Of a stretch of DNA of 64,000 nucleotides, positions 3,069-58,280 are shown piece by piece. The stretch is from Vigna angularis (lineage: Eukaryota; Streptophyta; Magnoliopsida; Fabales; Fabaceae), in assembly GCF_016808095.1 (NCBI RefSeq), contig NC_068977.1, positions 3,284,479-3,348,478 of the forward strand. Direction: 5' to 3'. The position numbers and the translations under genes are program-made. Numbering within the stretch: position 1 is the stretch's first letter; every line of letters begins with the position of its first letter. The notes beneath the pieces are model-generated. The model searched no databases and had not been told where the DNA came from. It saw nothing but the letters and a program-made list of their open reading frames with translations.

Positions 3069-3160
3069 GGAAAGAAGAACAACATATGGTGGTGGTACGG
3101 GTAGGCAAACTGCCTTATAGTGCACTGCACTATAAAAGTTTATAGTTAATTATAAACTAG

Positions 3161-5245: not shown

Positions 5246-5601
5246 TTCATGTGATGACTTGAAGATCTAAACTAAACTTTAAGTGCGCACCATTCATTAG
5301 AATTATCAAGTCATCATCCTTATATGAATTGAAATGATCGGATCATGGCGGGCAAAAGTCATGAATGACAAGATTCCTTCCATGTATCACATAATCAAAC
5401 CAACTCAACATAACTTTAATCAATCTTTTAACTTTCATGTCTCTAAAAGAGATATAACATGTTACCACAATCAATAATACATGTATATAACTTAATGTGG
5501 ATAACAATAGAATAAAGAGAAACATAACTTTAATTGAATTCACAAGTGTCATAACAATACAAGCATATAACTATACATATCCATAAAGATAGATAACATC
5601 A

Positions 5602-11104: not shown

Positions 11105-14100
11105 GGTTTAATACCTCTTTTGGTCCCTCGAAAGGGGGCAAAAGTTCAATTCGGTCCTACCTTTTTTTAGAAGTTCAATGTGGTCCCAACTTTTGTAAAA
11201 AGTGTGCAATCAAGTCCTTTTTGGAAACGGCGTTGAGTTTTTAACGGAGCAGCTGACAAGGTGGACTGAAGTTAGCTACGTGGCTGTGTGTGGGTAATAC
11301 GTGGCTGTGAAAGGGTGATACGTAGCTGTGAGAGGGTAAATGTGATAATATTACTGAGGTTAAGAAATCAGAAGTTAGGGTTTGAGGAATTGCAGAGAAA
11401 TTGGTAATTTGGGATTTATCATCGTGGAGGAAGTGTGTTGAAATCTGAAGCACGAATTGGATACCGCAAATCTGAAGCTCAAATTGGAAACCGCAAATCA
11501 GGTTAGGGTTTATGTTTGATAATTTTATGATATGTATTTGTTGTATATGTTATCACTGTTGTCGCTTTATAGGGGGTTTAAGTAGGGGTGAAAAGTTGTC
11601 TTGTTTTGATGGTTGATAGTGGTCCCATAGATATTAGTGGTCCCCGTTTGCATTTGCAGGGTTGGGGTAGGGATGGGTGATGACATGTTTCAGGTTGTGG
11701 TCCATCACGGTGGGACCTTGATCAAAGAAGTCCCCTTTAAGTATATGGGCGGGGAGATAGTTTATTGGGACGTAGATCCTGATAAATGGTGTTATTTTGG
11801 AGTATTAGGTTCACTTAAAGATCTGGGTTACATGGAAGTAAAAGAATTATATTACAATATCCAACATGTTTTACATAAGCTTGATGATGATAAAGGAGCT
11901 ATGAACATGATGAAGGTGGCTAATTATTTGGGGAAAGTGAACCTGTATGTTGTGCATGGGATGGACGAACCAGCTATTGTAGAAAATGATGACAATGAGA
12001 TTTTGTACCTATGTGAAGGTCCAGCAGACAGTGGTGAGGGTAGTGACGTTGGAGGAGAAGCATATGTTGAGGGTGACAAGGAGGATGCTGAGAATGAAAA
12101 TGTCTGGGAGGATGACAAGGAGGATGCAAAAGATGTTGAGGTTGTAGTGGAGGTTGAGAATGAGGACAGAGTTGAGCTTGAAAATGATGGATTAGTGGAA
12201 GTGCACATTGAGGATGGAAGGGAGGTTGAAAGTGAAGAAGAATTGGAAGTGGACATTGAGGAGGGAGGGGAGGTTCCTACTGAACAAGAAGTGGAAGTGG
12301 ACATTGAGGATGGAGGGGAGGTTCATACTGAACAAGAATTGGAAGCGGACATTGAGGATGGAGGGGAGGTTCACACTGAACAAGAATTGGAAGCGGACAT
12401 TGAGGATGGAGGGGAGCTTCATATTGAAGAAGAATTGGAAGTGGACGTGGACAGTGATGATGAACTAGGAATGGATGATCTGAGTGGTGATGAATATGTG
12501 GATGCAGACAATGATCAAGAAACCCAACAACAATGCAGGGGTTTGTCAGATGATGATTGGGAGTCTGATATGCTTGTAACTCCTGAAAACAGTTCAAGTG
12601 AGGAAGATAACAATGAGGATAGAGTATGTATGGGTGGTTTCTCAAAATATGCAAAACAGAAGTCCATGGCAGATTATAAGTGGGAAGTGGGCACCATTTT
12701 CAATGGGAAGGAAGAGTTTAAGGATGCTATTAGAAGGTATGATGTTCATGCTGGGAGGGATCTAAAATTTGTGAAGAATGATAAGCGTAGGGTGAGGGTG
12801 CGCTGCATGGGTGGCCAAGGGAAGTGCCCATGGGTAGCTTACTGTGGGTACTTGCCATCACGCAAAATTTGGCAATTAAGGAAGATAATTGATACTCACG
12901 GTTGTAGTAGGCAACTTAACATCAAACTAATGAATGCTCAGTGGTTGAGTGAAGAAATAGATAGGTCTTTAGTTGACAATCCTAATTTAAAGGTGAATGA
13001 TATTCATACTAAAGCATTAAGAAAATGGAATACAAATGTGTCAATATCCAAGGCACGAAGGGCAAAGTTAATTGCCACAAGACAGCTTGAAGGAGATTTC
13101 AAAGAACAGTATAAAAGGATATACGACTATGGACATGAGTTGTTGAGGTGTAACCCAGGTTCAACAGTGCAGATTAAAGTTGACTCTCATAATGGTGACC
13201 CAATCTTCCAAAGAATGTATGTTTGTCTGAAAGCTTGTAAAGACAGCTTCAAAAGTTGTAGGCCCATTATATGTTTAGACGGATGTTTTTTGAAAGGTTA
13301 TTACAAGGGAGAGCTTCTCACTGCTGTTGGTAGGACCCAAACGATCAAATGCTACCCCTTGCCTATGCAGTAGTAGAAGTGGAGAACAAAGAGAGCTGGA
13401 CATGGTTTTTGCAATTATTAATTCAAGACCTCGGGGGTAGTCAAGTATGTGGGGGATGCACGTGGATGTCAGACCAGCAGAAGGTAAATATACACCTTAT
13501 ATTCAATTTAAGTTAATACTTTGTTAAAGGATCTTGTTTTATGACTAAAATTATTTGTGCAGGGGTTGGTCCCAACTATCCAAGAGCTTCTTCTTGGGGC
13601 AGAACAAAGATTCTGTATGAGGCACCTGTATGCAAACTTTAGGAAAAGGTTTGGTGGTCAAATTTTAAAAAATCTGATGTGGACAGCTGCCACAAGCACA
13701 TATCCACAGGCTTGGGAGAGAGAGATGCTGAAAATTAAAGAAGTCAATATTGAAGCATATAAATACCTCATAGGCATTCCCCCGAGGTAACCCATTAGCC
13801 ATTACATACAATTTACTGTCCCTGATGCATTGTAACCCATTTGAGTGTGCAACAGGTTTTGGTCAAGATCTCGCTTCACAGGTCAAGCAATGATTGATAC
13901 ACTAGATAACAACATCAGTGAAGCTTTCAACAGTGTTCTTATTCATTCAAGAGGAAAACCTATTATAACCATGATGGAGGATATCAGAGTTTATCTCATG
14001 AAAAGGTTGGCCACCAATAGAACCAAGGTGGCATCTATGGACTTCACAATATGCCCAAAGATAAAGAAGAGACTTGAGAAGGAATGTAATCTGTCAAGAT

Positions 14101-18009: not shown

Positions 18010-18551
18010 TTATGGATTTATGATCCATATTGAAATTACAATAATATTAAGTAAAAAAATCAAAATAACTAATCCTGTCAACACCTTCATCCATTTCTCC
18101 ACAACGTTGACAGATTTAATCAAATCACTCATCATCTTCGATCCACCTCCCATTTCTCTTGTCTTTGACAAAGACTCATGCTTTTCTTCCCACTTCACAT
18201 TCGTATAGCTTTTGTCATCACCGTCTTCACAACACCATTTGAAGAAATTGCAACCACCTTCATGTCCAGTCTGTGAAAAAAATAAAAATTAAAACCACTT
18301 TCCAGGAGTAACAAAACCCTACTTCTACACGTTCTTACCTTGTACTTAGGGCAGCTCCAGAATTGCTTCCCTCTGTTCTTAGTAGTTCTAGCTGTTCTTA
18401 CCACTGTTTTCTGTCCACAGAGGCAAAGGGGTGATACACCATCAATGGTAGATACTCCACCACCACGAAAAACGACATCACAGTTTTGATTCCGCCACCC
18501 ATTGCATGTCGAAGATGAACAAGAATGCGACTTTTGCACTTCATTATCCAT
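18010..18551 (-). CDS. GRF-type zinc finger protein carried by MULE B
   Basis: Two exons, 18339-18551 and 18010-18270, joined in phase 0 (AAG|GTAAGAACG ... TTTCACAG|ACTGG), give 157 residues from MDNEVQKSHSC. A GRF zinc finger spans about residues 42-86: CLCGQKTVVRT, then NRGKQFWSCPKYK, then CNFFKW. Near the C-terminus is one hydrophobic membrane-type helix (VLTGLVILIFLLNIIVISIW). GRF fingers bind single-stranded nucleic acid in several DNA-repair proteins, and in legumes small proteins of this type are often annotated as At4g04775-like. The frame is also open upstream through the 33-bp repeats, so a longer N-terminus is possible. The MULE C copy differs at only three residues. Function in or for the transposon is unknown. 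Confidence 0.75.
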
Positions 18552-18868
18552 CACTTCGAAACGAACAAAGAACGCGCACCCTCCCACTTCGAATCGAACC
18601 AAGAACGCGCACCCTCCCACTTCGAATCGAACAATGAACGCGCACCCTCCCACTTCGAATCGAACCAAGAACGCCCACCCTCCCACTTCGAATCGAACAA
18701 TGAACGCGCACCCTCCCACTTCGAATCGAACCAAGAACGCCCACCCTCCCACTTCGAATTGAACCAAGAACGCCCACCCTCCCACTTCGAATCGAACCAA
18801 GAACGCGCACCCTCCCACTTCGAATCGAACAAAGAACGCGCACCCTCCCACTTCGAATCGAACAAAGA
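18551..18868. repeat. 33-bp minisatellite, about ten units
   Basis: Unit of the form CACTTCGAATCGAACAAAGAACGCGCACCCTCC, ten copies with small changes (CCAAG or CAATG variants, CGCC for CGCG). Because 33 is a multiple of three, several frames stay open on both strands; in the frame of the GRF gene it would read as 11-residue repeats of VRFEVGGCAFF. MULE C has seven units. Confidence 0.93.
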
Positions 18869-19275
18869 TACACCTGATTTTTGGATCGAACTTAGGATCC
18901 CATTTTTGGCCTCTCACGCGAACCCTAATATTAAAAACCCTCAATTTCTTTCCCCAATCTCATGTGCATTCGTCAATTAAAACCTTTTGGCCTTTAATTT
19001 TTTCAAATTTCCTAGTATGCCCTTACCCAAAACTGAATAATCAAACGTGCATACCAATTATTTAATACAAAAATCGTTTTAAATGCCACGTCTGATTAGT
19101 TACTGCACTCAACCATGCCACCTAACCAATACCGTAACGGCCGTTTCTCCAAATTAACGGCAGGCCTGTAATTGATTCAATTTTACAAAAACAAGGACTC
19201 AATTGATACGCCGAAAATGAAGAGGACCTATTTGAAATTCATGACCAAAATAGGGACCTACGGAGACATTAAACC

Positions 19276-26532: not shown

Positions 26533-29500
26533 TCAGTAGTAGGCATCAAGATATTGATATTGGTGCTTCCTATTATACTGTAGCAAGCTTGCATATGTCC
26601 TGTCCCAGATTCCAATATACATACACTCATCATCAGGACTCAGACAAACCCCAGAAATTTCTCCAAAGAAATCAATCTCTTGCCGTATTTTGTAGTCTGC
26701 CTTTGTGCTATAAACGTGCACAAAATCTGCAGGCTCAGCAACCACCATATATTGACCATCTGAAGAAAACCGAATAGAACGGGTTGCCCCTAGGTTACCC
26801 CTGACAATGGCAACAGGAGAAGATAAGTGTCTAACATCCCATACTCTGCAAGTCTTATCCTGATTCCCCGTTGCAAAGGTACACCCATTGGGATGCCATG
26901 CAGAAGCAAAAGAGTAATCTCGATGACCAACCAAAGTAGCAACAGTCTAAGAAATCAAACAAGTCACAAAGATGTTAGTGGAAGTTTCTTCAGCATGGTA
27001 TGCTGTTTTTGGAAAGTATAAAACTACAAGGTAACTACATAATGCTTAATTAATTTCATTACATTCGTATCTTCATCTCCCTTTCCCAACACTTTTCATA
27101 TCTAGCATGCATTCACTATCCCTTGGAGATGTTTAACAATGACTACCCGTATGACCACATCATATAGCATATATGTTCAATGAAAGTTTTACTCGTTTCA
27201 CATTCACTACCCATACAGCTCCATTAGCAAATGCATGAACTAAATCAAAGACTGCATTCATCGGGAAAAAGACAAAAAAATATACTTGAACAAAAGTTTC
27301 CAACAACTGTATGATCAAGTGAAACCAAGTACCTTCCCATTCTGAGGATCCACCAGCAGCCCATCCAGGTTATCTCCAACAACAGTCATAAGCTTACGGT
27401 CTGGACTGATTGATGTGTGCTGCATAAGGAATCAAGGCAGATCAAAACTGCATTTTCTTGGAAGTAGAAATGATGTAGAAAAAATAGTTGAAGTTCATAC
27501 AAATTGTGAATGCAACTGCCATGCTCAAATCAAGAAAATCAGTTTAAGACAATCAAACAGTAGAAGAAAAAATTTAACATGGAAACTAGTTAACTTCAAT
27601 CCATCTTTGGCTTTAATTGATTATGCTCTATTTCCTTTTAATCAAGACATGCAATTTGGAACCTGAATTCCTGTGGTATTTTTCAAAATTTCAAACAAAT
27701 CTTATTTCAATTTCTCACTTATCCTCCTACAAGGGAAAGACTATCTCCATATAAGTCCATTTGGAAATCAAAAGCTTCTTCAAAGGTCAACTTTTCGAGC
27801 AAGAAATGAGTTTGTCCAAGTGGCATGAATCAGTTTCTTCATGTCCCCTTTTAAGGGTTTGGAAATACAAAAAAAATGAAAATCAAAACAATATGGCTGG
27901 ATAGTTTGTAAAGTGCATGTGAGTTGAAAGGAATGCTTGTATTTATGATTACAAGGGTACATCATATCCTTTAATGGAATCAACAAATAAGATATGCAAA
28001 GAGATTGGACAACACTCCTACACTAACTAGGTTTTACAGTTATAGGACTTCAGTATTTTGGTGTCTTTGTTTTGGTTTTCTTTTTAAGTTCTAAGAGTTC
28101 TTATCCTGAAACTTATGGTACTGTTTTCTTTTCACTTTCTAATATATTTTCTTCTAACCAACTGAAAAAAGAAAGAAGGAACTACAAGAAATGGAAATCG
28201 GAATGAACCTGAGTGAGAGAATAACTAGCTAACAAGCAGCAATTGAAAAAGAAAATAAAATAAAAAAATATACTGCATAAGTCAGATTTCTCTTAGAGGT
28301 GCTTACATTCACTGGCCAAGAGAACTGGAAGTTATTCAAAAGCTGAAACCTTTCTGTGTCATATTCTCTCACACCACAATCATTATTGGAAGCAATAATA
28401 TGAGTTGCACCACTGCAAAAGTTTTCATGTCAAGCCGTGTTCATGTTCCAAACAGAGACAAATATAACTTGGTATGAAAAATACCTCAAGCTGTCATATA
28501 TTTCAATTGCATTTGTTATGGCATTATCATCATGTGTGGTCCGTGTACAAAAGCTTACTCCCTTCTGATCCAAACGCTGCATTCAGAATAGACAATATAA
28601 GTTGCAGCACACAATCCTAATCTTAGTATGATAAAATTGAGAATTGGGGAGAGATAGTAGGCTTGCGTAGTAGCAATAATTCCTATCACATACCCAATAA
28701 AATGGAACAATTAATCTATATACTAAGTATATATTGCCAACCCAAATAGAAGGAAGCCCCAAGAAGAGAACAAAGGAGAAAAAGTAAAACACCACAATCA
28801 TAGAATCCGAAATATCTAATAACGCAAGATGTGCAAACAAAGGAAGGTTTGACCCCCAAAAACCAAGGGTGATTAACTACAAGTTAATCCTAGTGATTAA
28901 GTTGAGCTTGATTGAGAAGTTATTGTGAATTATGATAGAAACAAGAGTATTAGAAATAAGGGAGACCAAGCTCCTCACAAGTAAAGGTAGTAATTTTAAA
29001 GTGAAAATAGGACGGTATTCCTGCAATTATCAGTAACATAAAAATGAATATCAAGAAACACCTTTTTGAGCCTAACTGATCCAAACAGATCTTTTGTTCA
29101 CGAGCTTCACTAGTAAATCTATATACTAGTCCTCAAAGTCAAAGTTCAACAAAATTTAACAGGGAATCTAACAGAAAATGAAATCTAACAAAAATGTTTC
29201 CCTCTTTAGAACATATAAGAATCATATCAAAAGATGAAATTTTTGAACAATAAGAGTGAGTTAACACAAACTTTTAGTAACTTAATGCAAAGGACCACCT
29301 ATCAACAAAACCCTACATAGCACTGATTCCATATAGATAACCTGCTATTCTTTTAAAGAACACGTAGCCCTTTATGACCACCTGCCTTATATTTTACATG
29401 GGAGAATTTATTCACAGCAACCCGCACATTCAAGAAAAATTAATGTCTCCCAATGGATAGATGTTCAAGCAATATATAAATATATCATTAATAATACAAA

Positions 29501-31226
29501 GTCATTCATCTTTAATAGAGTATCGGAAGCATAAATCATGCGGACTCACCTTACAAGTAAGCTCTCCTTGGAAGCCACCAGCAACAAGAAGTTTATCCTT
29601 GACAGCCAATGTGCTAATCTGGGTCTGAGAAAATCCTTCCAACAAATTTCCTACATGTCTCTACAAGACCAAAGAATGCACAGTTAAGTAAAGCAAAGAA
29701 ATAAGATATGTATACTTAAATAAAGCAATGCTGAAGCCATTTAGATTGTGTTCTAGTATAAAATTCGTCATAATTTGCACTCTTAACTAAATCGTTTTCT
29801 CAAATGAACCATGATAACTTCTCTGATTCATTAACCACACATGTATACTTATCAACTAGGTTTCTCATGTTTAAAGAAATTATAGGTTCCGCATAAGACT
29901 TGCATTCATAAAGCACGGAAAAGACACAAGTAACATTTCAATTCCTCTATCTTTATAGATGAACAAGATTGTGTAAGGGACTGCATTACCTCCGTAGGGG
30001 CCACGTGCCCAGCAAAATTGATTATCTCAGACAAGGTACCACTTATAGATGACCAGTGATTAACTGAGTAGTTGGAGACAAGGTAGACATCATGCTTTGA
30101 GGTTGCCCATACCAAGTTTCTCAGCTGCATGTCACAAACAATTGTCACTAGGGTAGACTTTTTCCTTCATCAGTAAAATCCATTACATTAAGCTTGAATA
30201 TCATTTAGATAAGGAATCCAAACCTACTTTTGTAAGACCACAAACCATACAGAGAAACAGAACCGCTGTGTCCAATGAAAATGGACACATGCTTGTTTTA
30301 TTTTTATTTGATATATAATATAAAACAAACCCAATCCATCTTCTACAGGACTGTTGTTTCTCAATGTCCACGAAGAAAATCAATGTACAAGAAGTACAGC
30401 CACACACAATCAATAACATTTTGGTTAATTATATAACACAGGAAACCACCCAAACACTCAAGTTTCAACTTTCAAGTCATGTTAAAGCAAAGTTTATCAG
30501 CCATTCAAATCGCAGGAAAATAACTAGGTGCATCACCAAATGAAAAAGTCAACAAACCTGAAAATGAAGGATGGTAGGCTTAACCATTCTTGTGTTATAG
30601 AAGAACTCATAGTAATTGCCACCCTTCTCCATTTGCTTGGACTCCTGGGACCCGAAATAGGAGAAAAATAAATAAATAAATAAACTTTGAACATCAAAAC
30701 ATTTAGTCAAACGAATTCACTGCTATTTCCATCCTCCCAACAACCCTAAACAAAGGACAATAAAAAAGGGCAAAGAAGAAACAGAAAGGAAAAGACCTTG
30801 TCCACAGCATCCCCAGATGTAAGAATGTTCTCAAAATTCCTGTATTGCTCAAGCCTTGTCAACCTGTACCTTTCCCTTGATATGTTCAACCTCTCCCATG
30901 GAATTCCCTGAATGTCCTTTCCCTTTCTTGCCTGTGCAGCTGACGTATCAGTCACCTTAGTAAGCTGTTCCAATCACCAAACACATACACAAAAAAAAAG
31001 AAACAAACTCCCTCTCAGTTCAATCAATAGATACATAAAACAACTCAAAAAACTAAAAATTAAAAATAAAAATGCAAACCCGAAAAGAGAATAGGAAATG
31101 AAAAAAACAAACCATTTCATATTCATCAAGAGCAGCATCCCCACCATGGTTTTGGTAATCAATTTCATCAAAGAAATCGTCTTCGTCCATTTGATCAAAA
31201 GGGTTCATGTCATCATGGTTGGACAT
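26533..31226 (-). CDS. WD40-repeat protein, C2A9.03-like family
   Basis: Nine exons, all GT-AG: 31113-31226, 30797-30964, 30558-30644, 29990-30124, 29550-29660, 28485-28576, 28307-28412, 27333-27419 and 26533-26946. Together they give 437 residues. The start MSNHDDMNPFDQMDEDD was preferred over an in-frame ATG 12 codons upstream because the acidic N-terminus is typical of the family. The clearest WD unit is residues 301-339 (GHRDYSFASAWHPNG ... DKTCRVWDVR), followed by another blade (SIRFSSDGQYMVVA) and a conserved tail ending YQYLDAYY. WD proteins form beta-propellers that hold protein complexes together; the plant members like this one are usually annotated only as 'uncharacterized WD repeat-containing protein C2A9.03', after a fission-yeast relative, and I know of no assigned role. 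All exons agree in phase and no lesion is seen. Confidence 0.88.
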
Positions 31227-33640
31227 GGTGTCTTTCGTGCGTCCAAGTTCAACCCTTTTCAATAGATTATTGCAGTGTGTCCGTGCATTCGTTGTAGGAA
31301 CAGAAAGAAGAACGAAGACACGAAAGAAACACGGTTACCTCTTCTCCTGCATCTTAATATATCAATATAAAATTCTGAGCGAAAGAATAAAGCAATAAAT
31401 GAGATTAAAGGGTTTCTTTACCCTGTGCTTCCAAACAAAAACAATTAAAATATTTATATAAATATTTAATATCTCGTAGGTCCAAAAGAAACGCTATAAA
31501 TCCTGAGAAAAATACAATAAAAAATTAATATATTTTAAGAATTAAATATATATATTGATAACGTAGGGTCAATAAATTTATTTTACCGTTTAAAAAGATT
31601 AACAATGTTAAGACATAATTATTAAATTTATGAGTCAAATACGTTTGTACTCTTAATTTTAGATATAAAATTGAAATTTGATACAAATTTCTCACACTTT
31701 CATATATTTTTTTCTTTAAATTTTAAAAATAAATTTTAATTTAATTATATTAATTTTTTTAATACATAAAGGTATTATCAACTCAGGTTAATTGTAAGAA
31801 AAATATAATGTTATTGAATTAAATTGATTATATTTTTTATTTTTAAAAATATGAAACTAAAATAATTGAAAAGTTGAAAGAATAGGAATTTGATAGATGT
31901 GATTAATTAAGTTGATGATATAGAAGTAAAAAGGTGTGAAGATGATAAGAATATTAGTGGTGATAATTAGTAAGGGAGGAAAAGGCAATGGGTAGTATCG
32001 ATTGCATTGCGAATTGCGATGGGAATGTGGATATAGGATTGAGTAAAGAGACATTCATTGATTGTGTAATGTGTTTTGTTGTGTTGTGTGTGTATGGACA
32101 AAAGAGAAAGAGATGATGACAACCTCGTGCTCCTGGGACACTCCCCTCTTCTTCTATTCATCTTTTTTCTTTTTCTTCTATTTATTTATTCACTATCTTC
32201 CACCGCACTACCCAATTCCTTATCCCTACCACTTCTTACATCACTATTATTTTTAAATAATAATCTACTACTCTACCTTCACTACTTTTATAAATAATTA
32301 TTTCAGTATTTTTGTATTATTAAGATGTATGATTGATTTTTTTCTTTTGCATAGTCAATATATAAAAAATTTGGACGAAAAAAGACACGCCCATTCAAAA
32401 AGTGAAGACATGCCACAAACCGCAATCAAAAGCTTCCTATTTTATTCATCAAACCTACTTACTACACCTCATCGACAAAATCAAACAGAAAGAACAAGCT
32501 TTCTGTTCACTTTAGTCCTTTTAGCTACACCCTACTTAACACTTCCCCCAGTGCCTTATAAAGAAACAAATGAGTTTATTATTTTATTCTAATTATAAGA
32601 AATATGAATCAACTTTGAAAGTACATAAACTGCTTATTCTTTTTTGTATCTTTTTCTTATTGTGGAATGTATTAATGAAATGTTTTTACTTTAATAGTGC
32701 AAATAGATGCATTTATGTAACAAAATAAAGATTCATTCGTCAGAAAGTGTTGTCAGACTATTTGAAAACTTAGTACTTATATTATTTGATCGAATATTTA
32801 AAAATAGAATTTAAATTAACCATATTATTAATTGTAGAAAAGAGGAATGTAGCTTGCAAGCTTTAATGGACACGACAAATATACATTCACTTCACTCATC
32901 AGGGATATGTCCTATCAAATGAACAAACCTTAACAGAGACGGAATGGCATACGTAAAGGATGTTTACTATGCTATGATGTGCTACAGAGTTTTGACAAAG
33001 ACAAAAGAGTTGAAAAGGGTCACTTCTTATGTGTTGGTGGGGTTGTTCCAGTTACAGCTCGTGAGATTGATCTTGACATTACTATTTATTTTCATTTATG
33101 GACAATGATACTTTAATTTACCAGAGTAATCTCCCTAACATACATAAAGTTAATACTTGATAAGGCACGGAACCCAATAATTAAATGACGAATCAGCTAG
33201 AGCAAAAATAATTGCATAATTAGATGAAGAATCAGCAACAAGAATTACTGCATGAACGTATTTCAATCTCTCTGCGTCAATGGTTCATTGGCTCTGTTGG
33301 CATTTGCTTCTCTACAATTTCGTATAGCACCTTTATACTTCCTTCCTGCACCTTTATAGTTGTGGGAAAATGTCCAAATTGTTTATGGATTGGATTCCAG
33401 GTTATAAAATTCAAAAATCTATCAGATTTTTCAATCAGAAAATCTTCCTTAGATTGGACAATCTAAAATTAAAAAATATATTTCAGATTGGACAATCTAA
33501 AAATAAATATAAGAAGTAACCATGAGGATGGAAGAAGAAATACCCTGCTCTTCTGGCTGGGCACCTATTACTACTTTCGGTCAAGAGTAGAGTAGTTCAT
33601 ATGTCGTATAGAACCGTTCCTCTTCTTTCCAGGAGTATTG
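31227..33640. other. Intergenic region upstream of the WD40-like gene
   Basis: Presumed promoter of the WD40-like gene at its left end, then AT-rich DNA. A T/C-rich patch near 32150-32240 gives short frames with no domain. Two copies of AGATTGGACAATCTAAA (near 33451 and 33485) are a small local repeat. No gene is supported. Confidence 0.5.
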
Positions 33641-33645
33641 CTTGT

Positions 33646-33765
33646 TATTAGAAAGTGAGTTTATGCCTAACTCATCCCCACAAAACCGGCTTGTAGGGTG
33701 AGGTTTGCACCTCATTTATATATTATAATTTGGCCTTATCTCTAGTCGATGTGGGACTTCCAACA
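33646..33765 (-). repeat. TRIM 3' LTR
   Basis: On the minus strand it begins TGTTGGAAGTCCCACATCGA and ends CTTTCTAATA. It is 120 bp and preceded by the G-rich tract GTGAAGGGGG. The boundary is fixed by the CTTGT duplication at 33641-33645. Confidence 0.9.
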
Positions 33766-33899
33766 CACCCCCTTCACGCCAAGGTATAGACATCTCGTGC
33801 GTGATAGTAGAAATTGGGTGGTCCGATAACGGCCCGATTGCGGGTGGAAGAGAAGAATAGAATGCCCACTTAGAACTCGCTAGGATAGGCTCTAACCAT

Positions 33900-33963
33900 G
33901 GCTCTGATACCGTATTAGAAAGTGAGTTTTATGCCTAACTCATCCCCACAAAACCGGCTTGTA
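33900..33963 (-). repeat. Internal partial LTR with second primer-binding site
   Basis: 33913-33963 is the last 51 bp of the LTR, next to a primer-site copy at 33900-33912 (one change, final A to G on the plus strand). The piece is joined on its upper side to AGGTATAGACATC, matching the end of the TRIM leader, and then to the CCA gene. It shows that this element contains parts of two TRIM copies. Confidence 0.85.
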
Positions 33964-35359
33964 AGGTATAGACATCTTTGCCATTGATCAATTGTTTTAC
34001 GTCCCATATCCTCTCAAGGCCGAGTTTGGTTATAGCATTCTCCACAGTATTAAACAGATCTCTTCTTATGTCCAGCTGGGAGGGCTCATCCTCAATGTCA
34101 ATAGGATGTAGTATAGTAGATATCAACAGTGCAACTCGCCAAAAATCTTTAAGCTCTCTTAAGAGAAACCCTGTCAGTACCCTGACTCTAGAATAGACAG
34201 GGACATCAACCAAGTCTCCCATCCAATCATGATCGACAACTTGGTCATCCTTACCAGATGTAAGACAAGGGAACAACGACAAGAATTTATGTGATGCTTG
34301 GTGTAAATTAAGCACCACTTCCGCATCCTTAGCTTTTCGTTTAAGTGACTCCCGGATAATATGATTGACAACAGGAACCGTTTTTGCTTTTTTTTCTCTG
34401 TAAGTGGTATTTCTAAGAGGAAGAAACAAAGCAGCATAAAGTGCTAACCTTTTTTGTTCAGCAGTGAAAGTTGACTCTCCAAGTAACTGGACAAGGTTCC
34501 AAGCAGTATCCAAGCAAGAAATGCAAAGCCTTTCACATCCATCTGAAATAGCAGGTTCAAATTCAGGAGGAAGACTGAATACAATCTGAAAGAGTGTCAG
34601 ATCATAAATGTAAGTCATTGCTTTGACCGGCTGATTTCCGGATATCATAAGATCAATCTCAGTTCCAATGCGCTCTCTGCTAATTTTAGTGGCCAGAGCA
34701 TCTTTCACATCATCACATGAAGCAGCTACTTTCAGATCTTCGTCTAGGGTGAATTCAAATCTAGCACCAAATCTAATGGCTCGAAGAACTCGTAATGGGT
34801 CATCAAGAAATGTGGCTTTTGGGGGTAAAGGTGTCACAATCTTTCCGGACTTAAGATCCAGGATCCCTCTCTTAGTGAAATCTTCAACTGAGTCAGTGTT
34901 GATATTGTAGAATAAGCTGTTAATTGTCAAATCTCTCCTATATGCATCCTCTTCTGCTGTTCCAATTCTTTGCTTGGAAGGAATGCGGCTATTCTCAGTG
35001 TATTCTTCACTACGTAGGTTAACAAAATCAATCCACATATCAAACAAACGCATCCTGGCTGTTTCCAAATGTTTGGACTGGTCAGGATTGCTCTCGATGA
35101 CACAAACTCCCTGTGCATCTTCGCCGATGGACAACAAGTACTCCCTAACCTTGTCGACAAACTCAGTTCCCATCATATTGTCCAGAGCGATATCGATGTC
35201 ATAGCACTCTTTTCCTAGAAGCTTGTCGCGAACCCAGCCACCCGCGACACGGAGCTGAGTTTGGAGGTGAAAGTGGCGAAGAGTGGCAAGAAGCCTATCA
35301 AAGATGCTTCTCTCGGTATCAGATATGTCGATTCTGTCACGGACCTGAACCGTAGACAT
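33935..35359 (-). pseudogene. tRNA CCA-adding nucleotidyltransferase, retrotransposon-captured and 3'-truncated
   Basis: An uninterrupted frame of 474 codons from MSTVQVRDRIDIS. Class II nucleotidyltransferase motifs are all present: GGWVRD with DIDIA (metal-binding Asp pair) near residues 36-54, RRDLTINSLFYN (motif B), DDPLRVLRAIRFGARF (motif C) and SRERIGTEIDL (motif D). The enzyme adds CCA to tRNA 3' ends in nucleus/cytosol, mitochondria and plastids. The native sequence ends at residue 462 (LINGKD) and 12 residues read from TRIM LTR follow, so about 50 C-terminal residues are lost. Those residues lie upstream at 35719-35877. The frame is also open upstream of the chosen ATG, but that part runs into the antisense duplicate and is not native. 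Absence of introns over 1.4 kb suggests an mRNA-derived copy. Catalytic motifs look intact, so a truncated product is conceivable. Confidence 0.85.
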
Positions 35360-35661
35360 TGGTGCGCAACCGCAACTCCGAAACGACGGCGTGGCGATTC
35401 GAACGAGGGTTTTGGCGGGACGGTGAGAGTGGCTTTGAAAACTGCCACAAATATGATGGGAACTGAGTTTGTCGACAAGGTTAGGGAGTACTTGTTGTCC
35501 ATCGGCGAAGATGCACAGGGAGTTTGTGTCATCGAGAGCAATCCTGACCAGTCCAAACATTTGGAAACAGCCAGGATGCGTTTGTTTGATATGTGGATTG
35601 ATTTTGTTAACCTACGTAGTGAAGAATACACTGAGAATAGCCGCATTCCTTCCAAGCAAAG
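34968..35661. repeat. 212-bp perfect inverted repeat inside the CCA gene copy
   Basis: 34968-35179 and 35450-35661 are exact inverted copies by my reading, separated by 270 bp that contains the ATG of the CCA frame. Each arm encodes the same 70 or so residues of the enzyme (MMGTEFVDKVREYLL ... IPSKQ), one per strand. A transcript across both would fold back on itself. Confidence 0.93.
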
Positions 35662-35718
35662 CAGCTTCTCTCAATCCGAAACAATGAGAGAATAAACAAT
35701 CACTCAAGGCAATCAATC

Positions 35719-35877
35719 TCATTGCAACTTAACACGCTTAGAATTGGTTTCTCTCAACCATTCAACGCAATCCTCCGCGGTTCCAGATGGAAGGGCAAGT
35801 TGCCAAGCCATTGCTTTATCCAGCGACTCCTTTACAAGAGGCCCTCCTCCTTTAAGCCCTAAGGTATTCATAACATC
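35719..35877 (-). pseudogene. CCA-adding enzyme, displaced C-terminal segment
   Basis: Codes for the last 52 residues and stop of the enzyme (DVMNTLGLKGGG ... SKRVKLQ) with the native 3' UTR following to about 35662. It begins in GATGT, the same pentamer at which the main copy stops (33972-33976), and is preceded by TRIM leader. It lies 5' of the N-terminal part, so the gene is permuted and this piece cannot be translated as the end of that frame. Confidence 0.88.
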
Positions 35878-35982
35878 TCGTGCGTGATAGTAGAAATTGG
35901 GTGGTCCGATAACGGCCCGATTGCGGGTGGAAGAGAAGAATAGAATGCCCACTTAGAACTCGCTAGGATAGGCTCTAACCAT

Positions 35983-35995
35983 GGCTCTGATACCA
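35983..35995 (-). other. TRIM primer-binding site, initiator Met tRNA
   Basis: TGGTATCAGAGCC on the minus strand, directly against the 5' LTR end. The leading TGG pairs with the CCA tail of the primer tRNA. Confidence 0.9.
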
Positions 35996-36115
35996 TATTA
36001 GAAAGTGAGTTTATGCCTAACTCATCCCCACAAAACCGACTTGTAGGGTGAGGTTTGCACCTCATTTATATATTATAATTTGGCCTTATCTCTAGTTGAT
36101 GTGGGACTTCCAACA
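35996..36115 (-). repeat. TRIM 5' LTR
   Basis: 120 bp, differing from the 3' LTR at two positions (CCGGC/CCGAC and GTCGA/GTTGA on the plus strand). Both changes fit decay of methylated cytosine. Bounded on the right by the CTTGT duplication at 36116-36120. Confidence 0.9.
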
Positions 36116-36187
36116 CTTGTAAATGAATAATGAACTTCGTCAAATGTACCAGAGTAAACTTCAACGTGAGTAGTAATAATAAGCAAC

Positions 36188-39100
36188 TTACAACAATTTC
36201 ACTTTACAAACCTCAACCGAAAATCCACATTCCATAAGCAGCAATAGCCATGCTCTCTGCTGCTCGGAGAGTCGGTCATTGTGGCCTTTAACTTCAACAA
36301 GCTTGGCTTCACCACTGTATTCTCCATGGAAACGCCATAGCAGCAAATCAGGCATCCCACTAGACCAGCTCCGATAATCTTGAGCCAGAAGTTGGCAGAG
36401 AGATGCCAAACAAGTGCCCCCAACACAAGTAACAGCAGCGCGAAGCTCATCCAAAGAATGGGAGTCCCAATTAACTCCTCTACATGCTGTTCCAAAATGT
36501 GTTTCCCATGACTTAATAAGAAACTCCTCGGCCATGCCATCACGAATCTGCTGCAGATGGGATTCTATGACACTCTTTCTTGAAGTATAAAAACCATCAG
36601 TACCAAAATCTAAAGGAGCATTCTATAAATTCAAGACCAATGAGTAAAATTACAATGAATGAATATGTCTGTTCATAACAAACACTAAATACGAGTCTTC
36701 TAACAATATTTTTTTAACCCTAATTGAGTAAAAGGCAAAAGTACAAATAATCAACATAAAGTGGTAATTCTAGCATTACACAGTTAAACTAATGTCTTCA
36801 GTTAAACTATAACAAAATAACCATGAAAATAATCAGATTCATAATGGATGATGGTAACAGTTATGCCCTTAATTAGAAGTCCATGGAAAGAAAAAAAATC
36901 CTCTATCCCTTAATTTGTCAAGCTTTAATTTTAAAGGTAGGAGGAGCCAACGAGGCTTCCCTGAAGCAGCTTCTGAGAAGTGACTTGTAAGACAACTTAA
37001 GATTGTGAACTCGAGCACAGGTGAAAAAGGCTCAGCAAACTGGTAACGTAGAGTAACAATGGAAAGGGAACTAGAGACAGGTAAAAAAGGGAAAAGCAAA
37101 ACTTGATAATGACCTTTGTCAACAATCTATTTATAGTTGAAACTGCTGTGGAAATTTTATTCCACATCTCCAAGACATCGTACACGAAATATAGTAATGC
37201 AGCACAAAGTTGAAAGCTGAGAAAGACGGGAGGGTTAATTAACTGAATAAAATGTACCTGAAATCTAGTATAAAAGACATTTGGTACATCAGCATATATG
37301 ACATCCCACATAAGTAGCCCAAAAATGGTTAACCATATCCCACTCTCTGCGTGAACACCTTGCCATCCACCTCCATCCCTAGCATAGTAATTCAAAGCAA
37401 GCTCTTCCACTCCACATTGTTTCCCCTCTTCATTGTAGTACCTACTCTTTCCTCCCAAATCAGAATTCAATGGTCTCCCTTGAACAAAAACCTGAATCAT
37501 TACAACCACAATGAGAAGGCCTTGTTAAAGAAAATCAGAAATGTTAATTTGAAGAGAGTAGGACACAAGCAAATTATAGGTAAGAATCAATGAATCATAA
37601 AACAATAAGCAATTTACCTGAGGGATCTTCTGCAGTGCAGACCTAGAATAACTAGGAACTTTCCAGCGCCTTGGTGGTTTACCTAGACAAAGAACCCGCC
37701 TTTGCAGTGCCATTCTTGAACCAGCACGTACCCATGGATCCAGCAACCCGTTTTCAGATACTTGGAGACTCTCATCAATGAAGCCCAGGTGCTCCAAATC
37801 AATTGATAACCTCAGTGTCCAATATCCTCTTCTTAAATCAGAAGGGAAAACATTTAGCAGCCATCTGAGCAAATTAATTGCGTCAGTGTACCTGAGAAAC
37901 AAATGTCAGTTCTTCCATGAACCCATGTAAGTAAATACATATGCTCCATCTATTTCTACATAAATGAAAATCATGCTTACTTAACATCCTTAGAGTTAAG
38001 GCTGTATGGAGGCGTAACATTATTGGAGTTCATTCCATTAGGAGCTCGATCTAGTGTTCATCTTTTATATGTGACGCTATTTCACTCAGTAAATATGGAT
38101 AAAATCTATTGTTGAGGCTGAGGAGGAAATGGTGCAGGAACATGAGTTGTGCAGAACTAGAGTCGATAAATCAATGACAATAAGTAAACAGGAGGCAAAT
38201 AAAGCAATGAGGTGTACCCTGAAGAGACCTGAAACTTTGCATTCATAGTACTCATAAGTTGATATAGCAATCGTATGATCATCACACTTGACCAGATTTT
38301 ATGGTGCTAGTGGTTAGAGAAAATAGACCAGGCAGCTTAGAACAGGTTTGTTTGAATACTTCGTATGACCAGTTTCAACATAAATATAACATAAGAGAGC
38401 ATCATCGAACTAGCAATCATCACATTTCCAATTGGTTCTTAAAGGCAGTAATCACCAGAATCAAAGGCTTTGCCGGAATCATTACTTAAAGAAGCATAAG
38501 ATATTGGTGCCACTAGGGCTGTAAGAAACATTCAATCGCGGTTCCACCACTTATTCTAGCTTCTACTTCTCCACATCATTAGTAACAAGAAACAGGGATC
38601 TAACATCACTCATACAGCTTCAAGGAAATAGATACAGCAAAAACCCATCACATAGGACACATTCAAATTGTTTTCACTGTAACAATGTGAGCTGGACTGC
38701 TGACTCTATTTCACATATTCACAGCTATTTCGACACTTCTCACATAGAAGTCTTAGATCCACAGAAAGGAGATTGGCCACAAAATAGTGCTTCGAATACT
38801 TGTGGGACTTAATGTCAAAGATTGTACTATTCATGGCATGGGCAACTGGTAGCAAAATGGGTTTCTTCTTCTATAGATTGGGGTTTGCAGTACTTCTGGT
38901 ATTGAAAAGTACCACATCACTACTAAGTGCTCACAGGTTGCAGCAAATGAATTCTGTTTTGGCCACTAGCTCACGCAACAAGATTCATTAGGGCTTGTAC
39001 AATTGGGTTTGTATCAGTTCTGTTCTGTGTAATTGAAGAAAATCTTCTTCCTCTGATTTTGTATTTCACTGCAACTGTAGTAATAAGAGAAACTCAACTA

Positions 39101-42100
39101 GATTTTATGTTTACATTATCCACTTTATAACAACTATGGTGCAAGGAATTGATCTTACTATTTTTTATTTTACAGAAACTGTTTGTCGAGTAAATAGAAA
39201 GAAAAGTGGTTGAAGTAGATTGGGGAAGAAGTCGCTATTGTTGTGTAAATTCTAGAATAAATACATTTAAATGTATGTAAGCCATATCATGTGTTGGTTT
39301 TTTAGGATTTCCCATATCCTCGTATCTATTAGGATTTAACTATCTGGGTTTCATAGTTAAACAAACTATGATAGTTAGTTAAACTATGATAGTTCACAAC
39401 TAAAGAGCATTATAGTGCTAGATACAGTCATCCATGGAAGGATCTAATAAATTCTAAAACCAGAAACCGTTAAGAGCTAAAATACCATCATCCAATTTTG
39501 TCGTAGGTAGTAAGTAGACTAGACTTAAAAGTGAGTCCTTGTCGAGTGGATGGAACAGTAGATAAATAATTGAGGATAATTTGCATCGATTTATTATAAC
39601 TCTACTGCCCCACTGATTTATGATTGGCGTTCCTAAAACTGATAGTAATAATACCATACTACACAAGCTCCAAAACGTTTTTACCATGAATTTTAAAGAC
39701 TTCGCTCTCATACATGTTTACTACATATCGTATAGGTTTTGATGCCGTTATGTATCCATTTGAACAAGATTTAAGGGTTTGCTAATAAACCTCAAAACTA
39801 CCTGCGCTCCTGCTCAAGGAAAGAAATCCCCACGGTGACCACTTTGGAGTATACCCATGATGCTGTAAATAAGTGCTGAATTGAAGATACTGATTCAGAA
39901 GTTGAGTACCGGTCAGAAAAATCAGTAGATACACGGGATTCAGCTAGCTTTATGCACCTTAATACCACTTCAATTTTGTTTGTATCAAGAGCTTCATCCA
40001 TAATTTGTGCCACTTCAATAGCCTGAAAACCTAATGTCATATATGGAAGAAGGAACGGAAGACCACTAACACCTCTGAACTTGGATATGTACCTCTTCAT
40101 AAGAGAGCAGATTCCTGCGATTTGAGAAAATTGGTTCTGATATTATGCAGTTGTAAGCTGGATACTTAATTTTTCCCATATCCACAAGTAGAAAGGACGA
40201 CAGATCATGTTCTCCATTTAAAAAGAAAAGTCTCTGCAAAAGGAATATCGTTTACATCAGACCTAAATATTATCCAATTTGAATAAATCCTTTAATCAAA
40301 ATTAGCAGAGATCAAAGAGGCACCTCAGTACGCCACATAAGAGACTCAGATTTTGATGAAATCCTAATACAAGAACTAGATCTTTCCAAAATCATAGTTG
40401 ATAATTGTGACCTGCATTCAACGGGAAGCAAATATTAAATAAAACATATTTGACTCCACAAATTATAAAATCACAACTAGAAGTTTAATACCAAGGTACA
40501 CCAGCGTCACTAGAAATAATGGATGAAATCAGATGCTGCTTCTTCAACCCATGACCACCACCCTAGAACATTAATAGAATATACTACATTTAATAGTTAG
40601 TTCATAAGAAAGCTGACAAGGAGACAGCAAATAACACACATCAGATGCATTACCTAATTAATTTTTTAACATCTAGGTTTGTATAGAGAAACAAAAAATA
40701 TTCAATTGTTTGGCCCGTATCTGTCCACACAGCCCTCTTACTATGTAGTCATCAGAAGCCAATATTCAATCTAGGAACTTCTACAATGGATACAACCAAA
40801 TTTAGAAGGATCCATCCAAAAAGCTCCATTCACTTGTCACAAAATACACATTATGCTCAGGATGCACTCCTATAAGGATAACAAACTAAGAAAAAAAAGG
40901 TAAACCAAAACAAAAAAAAGAGATTGCACAATCGACCCAATAAGTACAAACCATCCATTTGACAACATTTTTCAATAAGATAAGCTTTGTAACTGACCAA
41001 ATTAAATCAACACAAATCCTCCCGAATCAATTTTCCTAAAACTTAAAGGCAACGATCTTATGCAGTCATTTAATTTAGAAACAAAAAAGAAGAAGCAATA
41101 ACCTAATAGGTAGGCACTGAACATCAACTAATGTCATTGCCCTTAACTTCTTTGGAAGCAAAGTAACAAACGGTAAACTCAGAACCTTCAGAAAACAATA
41201 AATTCGACCATGACAGATTTCAGAACAGGCAATTTCATATCACTTAATGTGTATCAGAGGATACAACTATTATTTAATAGCAGAAAGAGATTGATACACA
41301 GGTAACTTGCACACAACGACCAACTGCCTACTATAAAAATTAATAAGAAAAATCTAAGAAAAACATTATGTGTGTGTAGTCCTAAAACAAGCAATTAATT
41401 CTTACCTTTTTTAGTGAAATGCTCCAAATTTCACGCAATTCAGAAACATTGAGGACATTCAAGATATCTTTCACATCACTCATACATAGTTGATTCGCAT
41501 CTTCAATAAAATGTATGTATTCTTTATCTGCAACATGTATACCAAAGATACAGGTTACAAAGGAGGAATCAGATTTAATAGCAAAAGATCAAATCATATT
41601 TGCATGGAAAGAAGAAATGAACCTTACGAATTATATTGAATTACCAGCAAGTTCCTTCACTGCCTTTTGAGTATCCACTATTTCAGAATATGAAATGCTA
41701 GACATGCGAAACCAAGGTCCTTCATGAGAACCCAATATAAAAAATTTATCAATTCGAAATCAACAAAAAACTTCAAAAATGATTAATAGGCAGCTCAGAA
41801 AATCACTTTAAACAATAGGCATATTCTCGCATAACAAGTGGCACAAAAAGATCTCTACTTGGATACAAACAGAAGCATTTATTTCAGAGACGAGTGGGAC
41901 TGTCACGACATGAATAATAAGAGCATCAACATTTGTGATGTGACATAAGTTTTAGTGCCCGATGGAAGACAACCGGAATTTAAAATAAGTATGAAATTTA
42001 AATAACCTTTTCTAGTGTATAGCCGGATAAAAAGCCTCTGACTTTCATTTGAGAGTAAAGTGAATGAATCTGTCCAATCATCCATAGATGAGACATTGTT

Positions 42101-52959: not shown

Positions 52960-53375
52960 GGTTTAATGTCTCCGTAGGTCCCTATTTTGGTCATGAATTT
53001 CAAATAGGTCCTCTTCATTTTCGGCGTATCAATTGAGTCCTTGTTTTTGTAAAATTGAATCAATTACAGGCCTGCCGTTAATTTGGAGAAACGGCCGTTA
53101 CGGTATTGGTTAGGTGGCATGGTTGAGTGCAGTAACTAATCAGACGTGGCATTTAAAACAATTTTTGTATTAAATAATTGGTATGCACGTTTGATTATTC
53201 AGTTTTGGGTAAGGGCATACTAGGAAATTTGAAAAAATTAAAGGCCAAGAGGTTTTAATTGACGAATGCACATGAGATTGGGGAAAGAAATTGAGGGTTT
53301 TTAATATTAGGGTTCGCGTGAGAGGCCAAAAATGGGATCCTAAGTTCGATCCAAAAATCAGGTGTATCTTTGTTC

Positions 53376-53592
53376 GATTCGAAGTGGGAGGGTGCGCGTT
53401 CTTTGTTCGATTCGAAGTGGGAGGGTGCGCGTTCTTTGTTGGATTCGAAGTGGGAGGGTGCGCGTTCTTTGTTCGATTCGAAGTGGGAGGGTGCGCGTTC
53501 TTTGTTCGATTCGAAGTGGGAGGGTGCGCGTTCTTTGTTCGATTCGAAGTGGGAGGGTGCGCGTTCTTTGTTCGTTTCGAAGTGATGGATAA
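53376..53592. repeat. 33-bp minisatellite, seven units
   Basis: Unit TTCGAAGTGGGAGGGTGCGCGTTCTTTG plus TTCGA, seven copies, the inverted counterpart of 18551-18868. The last unit runs directly into the GRF start codon, and the repeat frame is open and in phase with it. Confidence 0.92.
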
Positions 53593-54125
53593 TGAAGTGC
53601 AAAAGTCGCATTCTTGTTCATCTTCGACATGCAATGGGTGGCGGAATCAAAACTGTGATGTCGTTTTTCGTGGTGGTGGAGTATCTACCATTGATGGTGT
53701 ATCACCCCTTTGCCTCTGTGGAGAGAAAACAGTGGTAAGAACAGCTAGAACTGCTAAGAACAGAGGGAAGCAATTCTGGAGCTGCCCTAAGTACAAGGTA
53801 AGAACGTGTAGAAGTAGGGTTTTGTTTGAGTGGAAAGTGGTTTTAATTTTTATTTTTTTCACAGACTGGACATGAAGGTGGTTGCAATTTCTTCAAATGG
53901 TGTTGTGAAGACGGTGATGACAAAAGCTATACGAATGTGAAGTGGGAAGAAAAGCATGAGTCTTTGTCAAAGACAAGAGAAATGGGAGGTGGATCGAAGA
54001 TGATGAGTGATTTGATTAAATCTGTCAACGTTGTGGAGAAATGGATGAAGGTGTTGACAGGATTAGTTATTTTGATTTTTGTACTTAATATTATTGTAAT
54101 TTCAATATGGATCATAAATCCATAA
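53585..54125 (+). CDS. GRF-type zinc finger protein carried by MULE C
   Basis: Exons 53585-53797 and 53865-54125, joined in phase 0, give 157 residues. The GRF finger has CLCGEKTVVRT, NRGKQFWSCPKYK and CNFFKW, and a single C-terminal hydrophobic helix (VLTGLVILIFVLNIIVISIW) could anchor it in a membrane. It differs from the MULE B copy at E/Q and A/T in the finger and V/L in the helix. An upstream in-frame ATG at 53291 would add the terminal-repeat and minisatellite frame, which I think is not native. It points away from the transposase gene, as accessory genes in MULEs often do. Whether it is a captured host gene or a long-standing MULE gene cannot be told from one window. Confidence 0.75.
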
Positions 54126-55381: not shown

Positions 55382-57554
55382 CTATAGTTCAGCTTCCTCA
55401 TCATTCATACACACTTCAGATAATTGCGATGATGGCATGATTGGTTCTTCGGTTGCTTTCGGGCAACGACTCCTGTTGTGCCCAACCTCCCTACATATCC
55501 CGCATCTCTTCCGCAAACCACCCTTGCTCACTCGTGAATCATCCTTTCTGATCTCCCACTGCTCCAGTCTTCTTTTCCTTTTAGGTCTTCCAGGCATAAC
55601 CTTTTTCCTAGGAGGCATGACATCCGGATATGGTGTTAGGTCCCACATGTTGTTGCCGTTGATGGGATATACGATTGATGCATAGGTTTCTTCATAGGTG
55701 GACTTTAGAAAGCAAGCCGGAATGAACTGCTGGCCATCAATATTAAGAAACTTCATTGCGGCAAGGGAGTGACAACATGGAATCCCTGTGATGCTCCATC
55801 TCCTGCACGAGCAGGAGAACTCGTCTATGTTTACAACAAATTTTTCTCCACTTTGGGAGACGTGTCTTACTTCAAACAGTTTGTGTGCTGACCAGCTATA
55901 AAGAAATAAAAAATTTAAACAACACATTTAAGTGTCTGAAATAAAGTTTACGAAGGAATGAATAAACATTTATGAAGTTATGAATAAAGTTACCTAGGTA
56001 TCCAATTCTTGGTTGCTTGGGATTCCTTTGTAAATCTGGCCTGGATCTTTGGACAAATTGGTCCTGAAAATGATTGTATCTTTGAACTTTTTCACGAATA
56101 TCAACACCCTTCATCTTAGGATTTTCCTGAACTGTTTTCACCAACTTTTTGCTCAACCACTTGGCGTCAACTAACTTCAGGTTGAACTCCCTGCTGCATG
56201 TATGAATGTCTTTTTTAGTTCTCAGCTGCCATGATTTTACAGCCTCCATATAACCAAAGTATATGGTCCATGGGCATTCTCCTTTTGCACCAAAGCACTT
56301 CATCCTCAATCTTCTCTTGTCATTTTTTACAAACTTTATATTCCTCCCATTTTCCAAGGCATACCCTTTTACAACATCTAAAATATCTTGCTTTTCTGCA
56401 AAAAAAGTCCCAACTTCCCATGTAAAGTCTACCATACTTTTTGGCATACAAAAAATACCAAACCTCCCATAACCTTCACTGCCATTAACCTCTTCATCAC
56501 TATCTGTTGCACTAAAAAATTCCTCAGATTTCCACTCAAAATCTGACAATCCTCTATCGTCATGACCATCACATTCAACACTGACATTATCACGGTCATC
56601 ATCACTATCATAAAGACTTTCTACTTGTACTTCTACTTCTACTTCGACATTACAATCTACATCACCATCTATATCACATTCAACACTCACATCTACTAGG
56701 CCCTCTAAGCACTCATTAATTCCATGTACATCACCTTCTTCAGTAGATGTACTCCAACTACAAAGATAAACTTCATCCTCCACGACTCCTTCACACACAT
56801 TCAACTCTTGCTCTTCTTCAACCTCATGCAACTCTTGTACGTGACCATGACCTTCAACCTCTACTTCAACAGCACCACCATCTTCTTCACCCTCGTTCAC
56901 CTCTTGTAAGTCACCATCAACTACATCATTTACTTCAACACTGTCACCATCTTCTTCACAAACATTGACCTCTTGTAAGTCACCATCAACTACACCATTT
57001 ACTTCAACACCGTCACCATCTTCTTCACAAACATTGACCTCTTGTAAGTCACCATCAACTACACCATTTACTTCAACACCCTCACCATCTTCTTCACAAA
57101 CATTCACCTCTTGTAAGTCACCATCACCTTCACCATTTACTTTAACAGAATCACCATCTTCTTCAACCTCTTTTTGTACTGTACCATTAACTTCAACTTC
57201 TCCTTCATCATTAGTAATGTCTTCAAGCATATGAATGACTTCGGGATCAGAAACTACATGGACAACGTATAAGTGAACTTCACCATTAATCCTAGCTAAG
57301 TTAGCCATATGCATGGCACCTCTGTCATCAATCAATTGTTCCAACCTATTTTCCAACACTAAACCCCCTCCTAAACAGTACCATAAATCTTTCAAATTCT
57401 CATATCCTAAACTTTTGACTACACTGACAACCACAAAAAAACTCCACGTGTCAGGGTCAAAGGACAAAGTTGTTGTCTCCCCTTCATACTTTAGGGTACT
57501 ATCATTAATGAACTTTCCTCCATGGTGGAACACACACACAATAGCGTCCTCCAT
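55382..57554 (-). pseudogene. MuDR-type transposase of MULE C with the catalytic domain deleted
   Basis: Two exons by splice sites, 55994-57554 and 55382-55895. From MEDAIVCVFHHGG it has the PB1-like N-terminal domain, an acidic region with 23-residue repeats around EVNVCEEDGDGVEVNGVVDG, and the DNA-binding domain (ENGRNIKFVKNDKRRLRMKC). Just after DIREKVQRY, near 56070-56080, the sequence jumps to a segment equivalent to ICPKIKKRLEKEC of MULE A, in another frame. The whole DDE catalytic domain (about 270 residues in MULE A) is therefore missing. Downstream parts are intact: SWIM finger CSCRRW ... CCHSLAAM, PGRPKRKRRLEQWE, and zinc knuckle CGICREVGHNRSRCP. The last intron has a normal AG acceptor. 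It could bind DNA but not cut it. Confidence 0.9.
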
Positions 57555-58280
57555 TACGCACAACACAACATAAATATATCTACAGACCTATTATGAAAAC
57601 ATATGACGACAAAAAAAATATATATTAAAACAGGCACAGAGATCAAATAACTTTAAACATACGCACTCAGACAAAGTCAAATAACTTGAAACATACATGG
57701 GGGACCACCAAAATGCAATCAAAACCAGAGACCAAACCATACATCAATGGGGGACCACGTATTCGATGTAGTTTCGATTGAATAAAAACGAATACAATAA
57801 AGCACAAACACTTACCTTCCTTTAGATGAACCTCCACTGACCACGTGCTTCAGCTTCTTGCTTCCAACAACAAAAGGACCCACAGACACCGCCCACTGCA
57901 TGCACTCTGCCGCTTCAGCTATGTTTACGATCGCGATTTTTGGCCTCTCACGCGAACCCTAATACTCTAATAATCTTTCCCCAATCTCAATTGCCCTTTA
58001 ATTTTTTCAAATTTCCTACTTTGCCCTTACCCCAAAACTGAATAAACATACGTGCATACCAATTATTTAATACAATAATCGTTTTAAATGCCACGTCTGA
58101 TTAGTTACTGCACTCAACCATGCCACCTAACCAATACCGTAACGGCCGTTTCTCCAAATTAACGGCAGTCCTGTAATTGATTCAATTTTACAAAAACAAG
58201 GACTCAATTGATACGCCGAAAATGAAGAGGACCTATTTGAAATTCATGACCAAAATAGGGACCTACGGAGACATTAAACC

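Follow-up and report, generated by a model that had tools for sequence, protein, structure and literature searches.

The window analysed here, a stretch of 64,000 nucleotides from Vigna angularis, was located by DNA search at C8:3284479-3348478 of the 448-Mb genome. Several frames and repeats in it were named by eye: a Copia-like pol frame (window 5602-8319), transposase-like frames (11637-13373 and 55896-57566) and short tandem peptide repeats in opposite orientations (18195-18980 and 53170-53875).

Positions 33646-36115 of the window (2,470 bp, minus-strand sense) are occupied by a TRIM-type LTR element, which contains a copy of the spliced mRNA of a CCA-adding enzyme. The element lies about 70 bp past the stop of a host gene with a VRR-NUC domain, in the same orientation as this gene, which we take to be FAN1-like. 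The parts of the locus are the following.

33641-33645, no strand: left copy of the target-site duplication CTTGT, present as a single copy at 5275-5279 of the empty site (L070)
33646-33765, minus: 3' LTR of 120 bp, from LTR comparison
33767-33912, minus: second TRIM internal region, 146 bp, with the G-rich tract at its low-coordinate end beside the 3' LTR and a primer-site-like stretch (one change) at its high-coordinate end
33913-33962, minus: partial third LTR, from LTR base 72 to the end, with one extra T and without U3
33963-33971, minus: nine TRIM internal bases (15 with the shared AGATGT) between partial LTR and CCA copy
33972-35432, minus: main spliced CCA copy, from exon 1 to exon 14 of the parent, with 8 differences in 1,461 bases and lacking 13 introns
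33935-35560, minus: open chimeric frame of 541 aa, with its start from the inverted arm, then the CCA enzyme and an 11-residue tail from TRIM bases
35424-35658, plus (sense on plus): inverted CCA arm, composed of the start of exon 1 (27 nt), exons 2 and 3 and the beginning of exon 4
35659-35872, minus: 3' part of the CCA mRNA, with the last 50 codons, the stop and some 60 nt of 3' UTR; it lacks one intron and has a single difference in 214 bases
35873-35995, minus: first TRIM internal region, beginning with the primer-site-like TGGTATCAGAGCC and ending in GAGATGT
35996-36115, minus: 5' LTR with a TATA-like box, from LTR comparison and joint analysis
36116-36120, no strand: right copy of the target-site duplication CTTGT, from the sequence
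36191-36622, minus: end of the host gene with the VRR-NUC domain, from domain search

The outer LTRs differ at 2 of 120 bases, and the direct LTRs of this length and divergence claimed in an earlier note were recovered at 33646-33765 and 35996-36115. The same holds for the perfect CTTGT outside them, which occurs once in the empty paralogous site described below, and for the primer site and G-rich tract. In minus-strand sense the primer-site-like motif TGGTATCAGAGCC follows the 5' LTR, and the tract GAAGGGGG precedes the 3' LTR; the primer site presumably fits the plant initiator tRNA-Met. Short direct terminal LTRs, a 5-bp duplication and motifs of primer-site and polypurine-tract type beside the LTRs thus characterize the element as a TRIM. 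Its body is small and encodes no retrotransposon proteins: the unit of LTR and internal region measures 266-267 bp in tandem copies, and the 1.9 kb found here in addition is CCA sequence.

The parental multi-exon CCA gene, for which the earlier note had proposed a search, was found on C3 (approximately 8304643-8312360, 15 coding exons) by a DNA search of the same genome that gave 31 matches from 17 candidates. No second spliced CCA copy appeared among these matches, and the 3' part gave three matches genome-wide, in the window and the parent only. All 14 coding introns, which have GT-AG borders in the parent, are missing from the element, 13 from the main copy and one from the 3' part. The intronless tRNA nucleotidyltransferase sequence noticed earlier between the LTRs is thus a spliced one, with a PolyA_pol head domain. 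Main copy and parent differ at 8 of 1,461 bases, four of the differences being amino-acid-changing, and the total for both parts is 9 of 1,675 bases (0.54%, in partly constrained coding sequence). About 94% of the 1,737 coding bases were captured, in altered order; what is missing is limited to 94 coding bases in exon 1 and the initial base of the start codon. When the four changed residues were compared with soybean and common bean, the parent alone departed at two, the copy alone at one and both at one; hence either both lineages have changed since the capture or the copied allele was another one.

CCA gene pieces were also observed in a Mutator-like (Pack-MULE-type) family at 11 loci (L048-L058) on C2, C3, C5, C7 and C10. 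Nine of them carry exon 1, intron 1, the starts of exons 2 and 3 and bits of later introns, while L057 and L058 hold a short exon-1 piece only. Ten of the 11 have inverted ends (elements of 1.27-1.6 kb), and a scan with loose criteria detected a 9-bp duplication at five. As these pieces include intron sequence, the CCA gene has been captured from DNA as well, by a second route.

Several features of the TRIM element were overlooked in the first reading: its minus-strand sense, the permutation of the CCA copy, an inverted repeat, the partial third LTR and the second TRIM internal region. Read in the direction of the element, the 5' LTR is followed by the primer site and an internal region ending in GAGATGT, and then by the CCA 3' part (9576-9862 of the parent stretch). 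Antisense CCA sequence comes next and comprises, in this order, the start of exon 4, exon 3, the greater part of exon 2 and a piece of exon 1 that reaches base 2 of the start codon. Sense CCA sequence then extends from exon 1 to an AGATGT in exon 14 and is followed by the nine TRIM bases and the partial LTR, which starts at LTR base 72; the element is completed by another primer-site-like stretch with its internal region and G-rich tract, and by the 3' LTR. The CCA copy is therefore circularly permuted, its last 50 codons standing upstream of the remainder. Segments 34968-35179 and 35450-35661 form a perfect inverted repeat of 212 bp, in which the arm is 100% identical to the main copy and two departures from the parent are common to both.

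The bases common to both sides at the successive joints number 6 (AGATGT), 3, 1, 9 (inverted), 6 (AGATGT) and 1, the same hexamer being shared at both TRIM/CCA joints. Positions 33646-36115 are accounted for as TRIM or CCA, barring single-base differences, the T added in the partial LTR and an uncompared base beside the 3' LTR; in this computed account ten bases of the second primer site matched CCA by chance. Counted from the first T of the TATA-like box TATATAAA, the partial LTR starts 28 nt downstream. The usual spacing between a TATA box and the RNA start puts a plausible start of transcription at about this place, and it is plausible that the border reflects run-off at the 5' end of an RNA with this putative start. 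Partial LTRs at other loci of the family start at bases 75-78 in 3 of 17 cases, a weak excess, with the distant 21-base match at L062 left out. Joint analysis revealed no poly(A) at the CCA borders and no border duplication beyond the six shared bases, which were counted as microhomology. Absence of all parental introns, AGATGT microhomology at the TRIM/CCA joints and a sole duplication outside the LTRs are what is expected of an LTR-mediated retrocopy.

The 541-aa frame contains the full PolyA_pol head domain (E 3e-34), and its enzyme part, from the CCA start, can be aligned over 463 residues with the solved chain 9kma. Compared with the 578 residues of the parent, the CCA frame is devoid of the first 41 and the last 50, so that a complete coding frame of a functional CCA-adding enzyme was not found in the element: both protein ends are missing, the head domain being complete. 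The 5' LTR with its TATA-like box is located upstream of the frame in the same orientation; the 3' segment of the CCA mRNA and the inverted arm separate the two. A public partial protein of Vigna angularis (P0004, VIGAN_11030600) begins with 64 residues from the inverted arm, continues with the main CCA frame and has the four residue differences of the main copy from the parent. Its gene model joins arm and frame at a shared CATC, without GT-AG borders, and this joint is perhaps an effect of cDNA or assembly at the inverted repeat and not a real intron. When the inverted-arm frame was searched against proteins, one weak match (P0121), covering 28% of the query, was obtained.

The flank at 36116-36620 has a second copy on C2, 99% identical. 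A C2 stretch (L070) matches the window at 28391-33645 (97.2%, with indels) and at 36116-40740 (99.2%), and the two matches overlap on C2 by exactly five bases, CTTGT, which means that in a paralogous segment on C2 this site is still unoccupied. The segmental duplication, C8 window 28391-40740 and C2:1684500-1694400, takes in the end of the VRR-NUC gene and extends beyond the compared stretch. Parts, spliced origin, joints and empty site of the element are thus established directly. The empty site proves the insertion of an LTR-bounded unit, but not by itself that the CCA sequence was present in it at that time. The earlier note had described one LTR-bounded insertion carrying a reverse-transcribed mRNA; this fits the multi-exon parent on C3 and the empty site on C2, while the presence of the CCA sequence at integration is what we infer.

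That the event is fairly recent, as proposed before, agrees with the few differences from the parent (9 of 1,675 bases) and between the LTRs (2 of 120). Between the C2 and C8 segments there are 89 substitutions in 9,838 aligned bases (0.90%) and 26 indels; since copy and parent differ by less (0.54%), the order fits an insertion after the segmental duplication. Substitution rates lie near 6e-9 to 1.3e-8 per site and year. With these rates the age of the insertion would be about 0.2-1.4 million years, the LTR count of 2 in 120 being too small for refinement.

The TRIM family was sampled at 20 distinct loci (25 rows minus 5 repeats), taken from the best 45 matches of 2,226 candidates. An exact 5-bp duplication was present in 10 of the 20, and these include three copies that are folded back and end in U5 on both sides (L008, L061 and L064) and two otherwise scrambled ones (L012 and L014). 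As such irregular copies are bounded by 5-bp duplications, irregular cDNAs of this family integrate as units. Tandem TRIM arrays are common in the family. One locus, L059 (2.75 kb, with the same LTRs and a GTATA duplication), was considered as a second capture and rejected. At 804-3163 it carries inside the TRIM a 2.36-kb TG...CA sequence, a few bases from the site matching the CCA joint of the window; the ends of this insert (TGTAAG...TTACA) and its own TCTAT duplication indicate that it is probably a nested solo LTR.

The best explanation of the whole structure, and in our opinion a likely one, is repeated template switching by reverse transcriptase among TRIM RNA, CCA mRNA and CCA cDNA, followed by a single integration. 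The non-coding TRIM would have been copied in trans by the reverse transcriptase of an LTR retrotransposon, in a particle shared with the spliced CCA mRNA. The growing strand would have run along the TRIM RNA to its 5' end and then along about 15 bases of TRIM internal sequence, switched at AGATGT onto the CCA mRNA and been copied to near the start of this mRNA. A turn-back along another CCA cDNA may have come next, then a re-entry into the mRNA near its 3' end and, once more at AGATGT, an exit to TRIM RNA. The resulting chimeric cDNA, whose LTR ends were normal, would finally have integrated once, about 70 bp downstream of the VRR-NUC gene, duplicating CTTGT. The order of the switches, the particle and the completion of all switching before integration belong to this reconstruction.

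The permutation about one AGATGT is the most curious feature. Two switches at the same six bases require either a preference for homology or an argument from RNase H, and this counts against the model. In the latter case RNase H might have removed the part of the mRNA that was copied first, so that the second pass would run out of template where the first had begun. As for homology, AGATGT is not the single best match between TRIM and mRNA, an idea that was rejected, as a better alignment lies elsewhere; the local alignment that begins with it ranks second (score 20, the best being 22) among at least 31 peaks. Since an alignment starts exactly there, homology may have guided both joints. A circular RNA as template was also rejected, as the closing joint connects 3' UTR to the inverted start of exon 4 and not an exon end to an exon start. 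It is conceivable, though rather unlikely, that one mRNA was copied once around as if circular, with entry at AGATGT, copying to the 5' end, re-entry at the 3' end and exit at the base of entry, RNase H having removed the remainder.

A tandem TRIM array might instead have come first, and a later double-strand break inside it might have been filled with pieces of CCA cDNA by templated end joining, giving permutation, inversion and loss of one U3. Such arrays are frequent in the family, the short microhomologies and the inverted filler at the joints are compatible with repair synthesis as well, and the insert at L059, near the same TRIM site, attests a later insertion there at least once. The outer duplication belongs to the TRIM under either account, and the empty site is compatible with both. 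We nevertheless regard this course of events as improbable: a long spliced CCA cDNA must be present during repair, an inner LTR beginning at the likely RNA start is left unexplained, and the existence of folded-back family copies flanked by target duplications points to an origin of such structures before integration. An assembly artefact around the 212-bp inverted repeat is very improbable; perfect inverted repeats and repeated LTRs are difficult to assemble, but P0004 carries both the residues of the inverted arm and the four differences of the main copy, in an assembly that is perhaps not independent. LINE-made retrocopies occur in plants and the copy is spliced, yet a LINE-type retrocopy lying by chance between two independent TRIM insertions is the least credible of all, as poly(A) and a duplication directly around the gene copy are missing, the order is permuted, the single CTTGT pair lies outside both LTRs and the empty site with one CTTGT has none of the parts, which in effect refutes it, barring separate arrival of both TRIMs and the copy at one base.

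Template switching before integration, the preferred reading, has partial precedents, considered here as far as the available sections of the sources describe them. Gao et al. 2016 (PMC4717578) present 30 gene-carrying TRIMs in seven subfamilies, exon-only and with 5-bp duplications; these measure 1,172-1,449 bp, contain exon fragments of more than 70% identity and, all but two, occur in at least two copies. Our element resembles them in its TRIM LTRs, 5-bp duplication, intronless exons and legume host, and differs in its 2,470 bp, in carrying about 94% of a coding sequence at 99.5%, in being the one copy found, in the permutation and in the company of its source gene and empty site. Maize Bs1 (PMC4717578, PMC13317346) is likewise an LTR element with exon-only host-gene pieces in a hybrid frame; however, its pieces come from three genes, whereas here a non-coding TRIM holds one nearly complete mRNA. 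A 2026 review (PMC13317346) gathers the Bs1, TRIM and Veju cases. Complex LTR insertions of grasses, attributed by Sabot and Schulman 2007 (PMC1950507) to switching before integration, share the extra internal LTR, the similar outer LTRs and the one flanking duplication, but join two retrotransposon RNAs, while a cellular mRNA is included here. The LTR-mediated retrocopies reviewed in PMC5408686 arise by a comparable switching between LTR-element RNA and mRNA, guided by microsimilarity; the non-autonomous TRIM, the nearly whole mRNA, the circular permutation and the foldback set the present case apart. Capture of exon fragments by TRIMs is therefore already published; against the accessible parts of these sources, a case in which almost the whole mRNA is present in permuted form, and both source gene and empty site are preserved, appears to be a new variant. 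In the open-licence literature, as far as its available text goes, we found no precedent for this combination with a foldback arm, and no reports on azuki TRIMs or retrogenes or on circularly permuted retrotransposon cDNA.

Source gene, product and untouched site are preserved in one genome and the copy is less than 1% diverged, so that the path of switching can be read almost base by base. It links the tandem arrays, foldback copies and gene capture of TRIMs to one habit, repeated template switching. If, moreover, one mRNA was indeed copied once around as if circular, TRIM reverse transcription can capture entire mRNAs of the cell in the form of permuted circles, and the LTR promoter with the open 541-codon frame would constitute a new putative chimeric tRNA-processing gene, ready for transcription and further moves.
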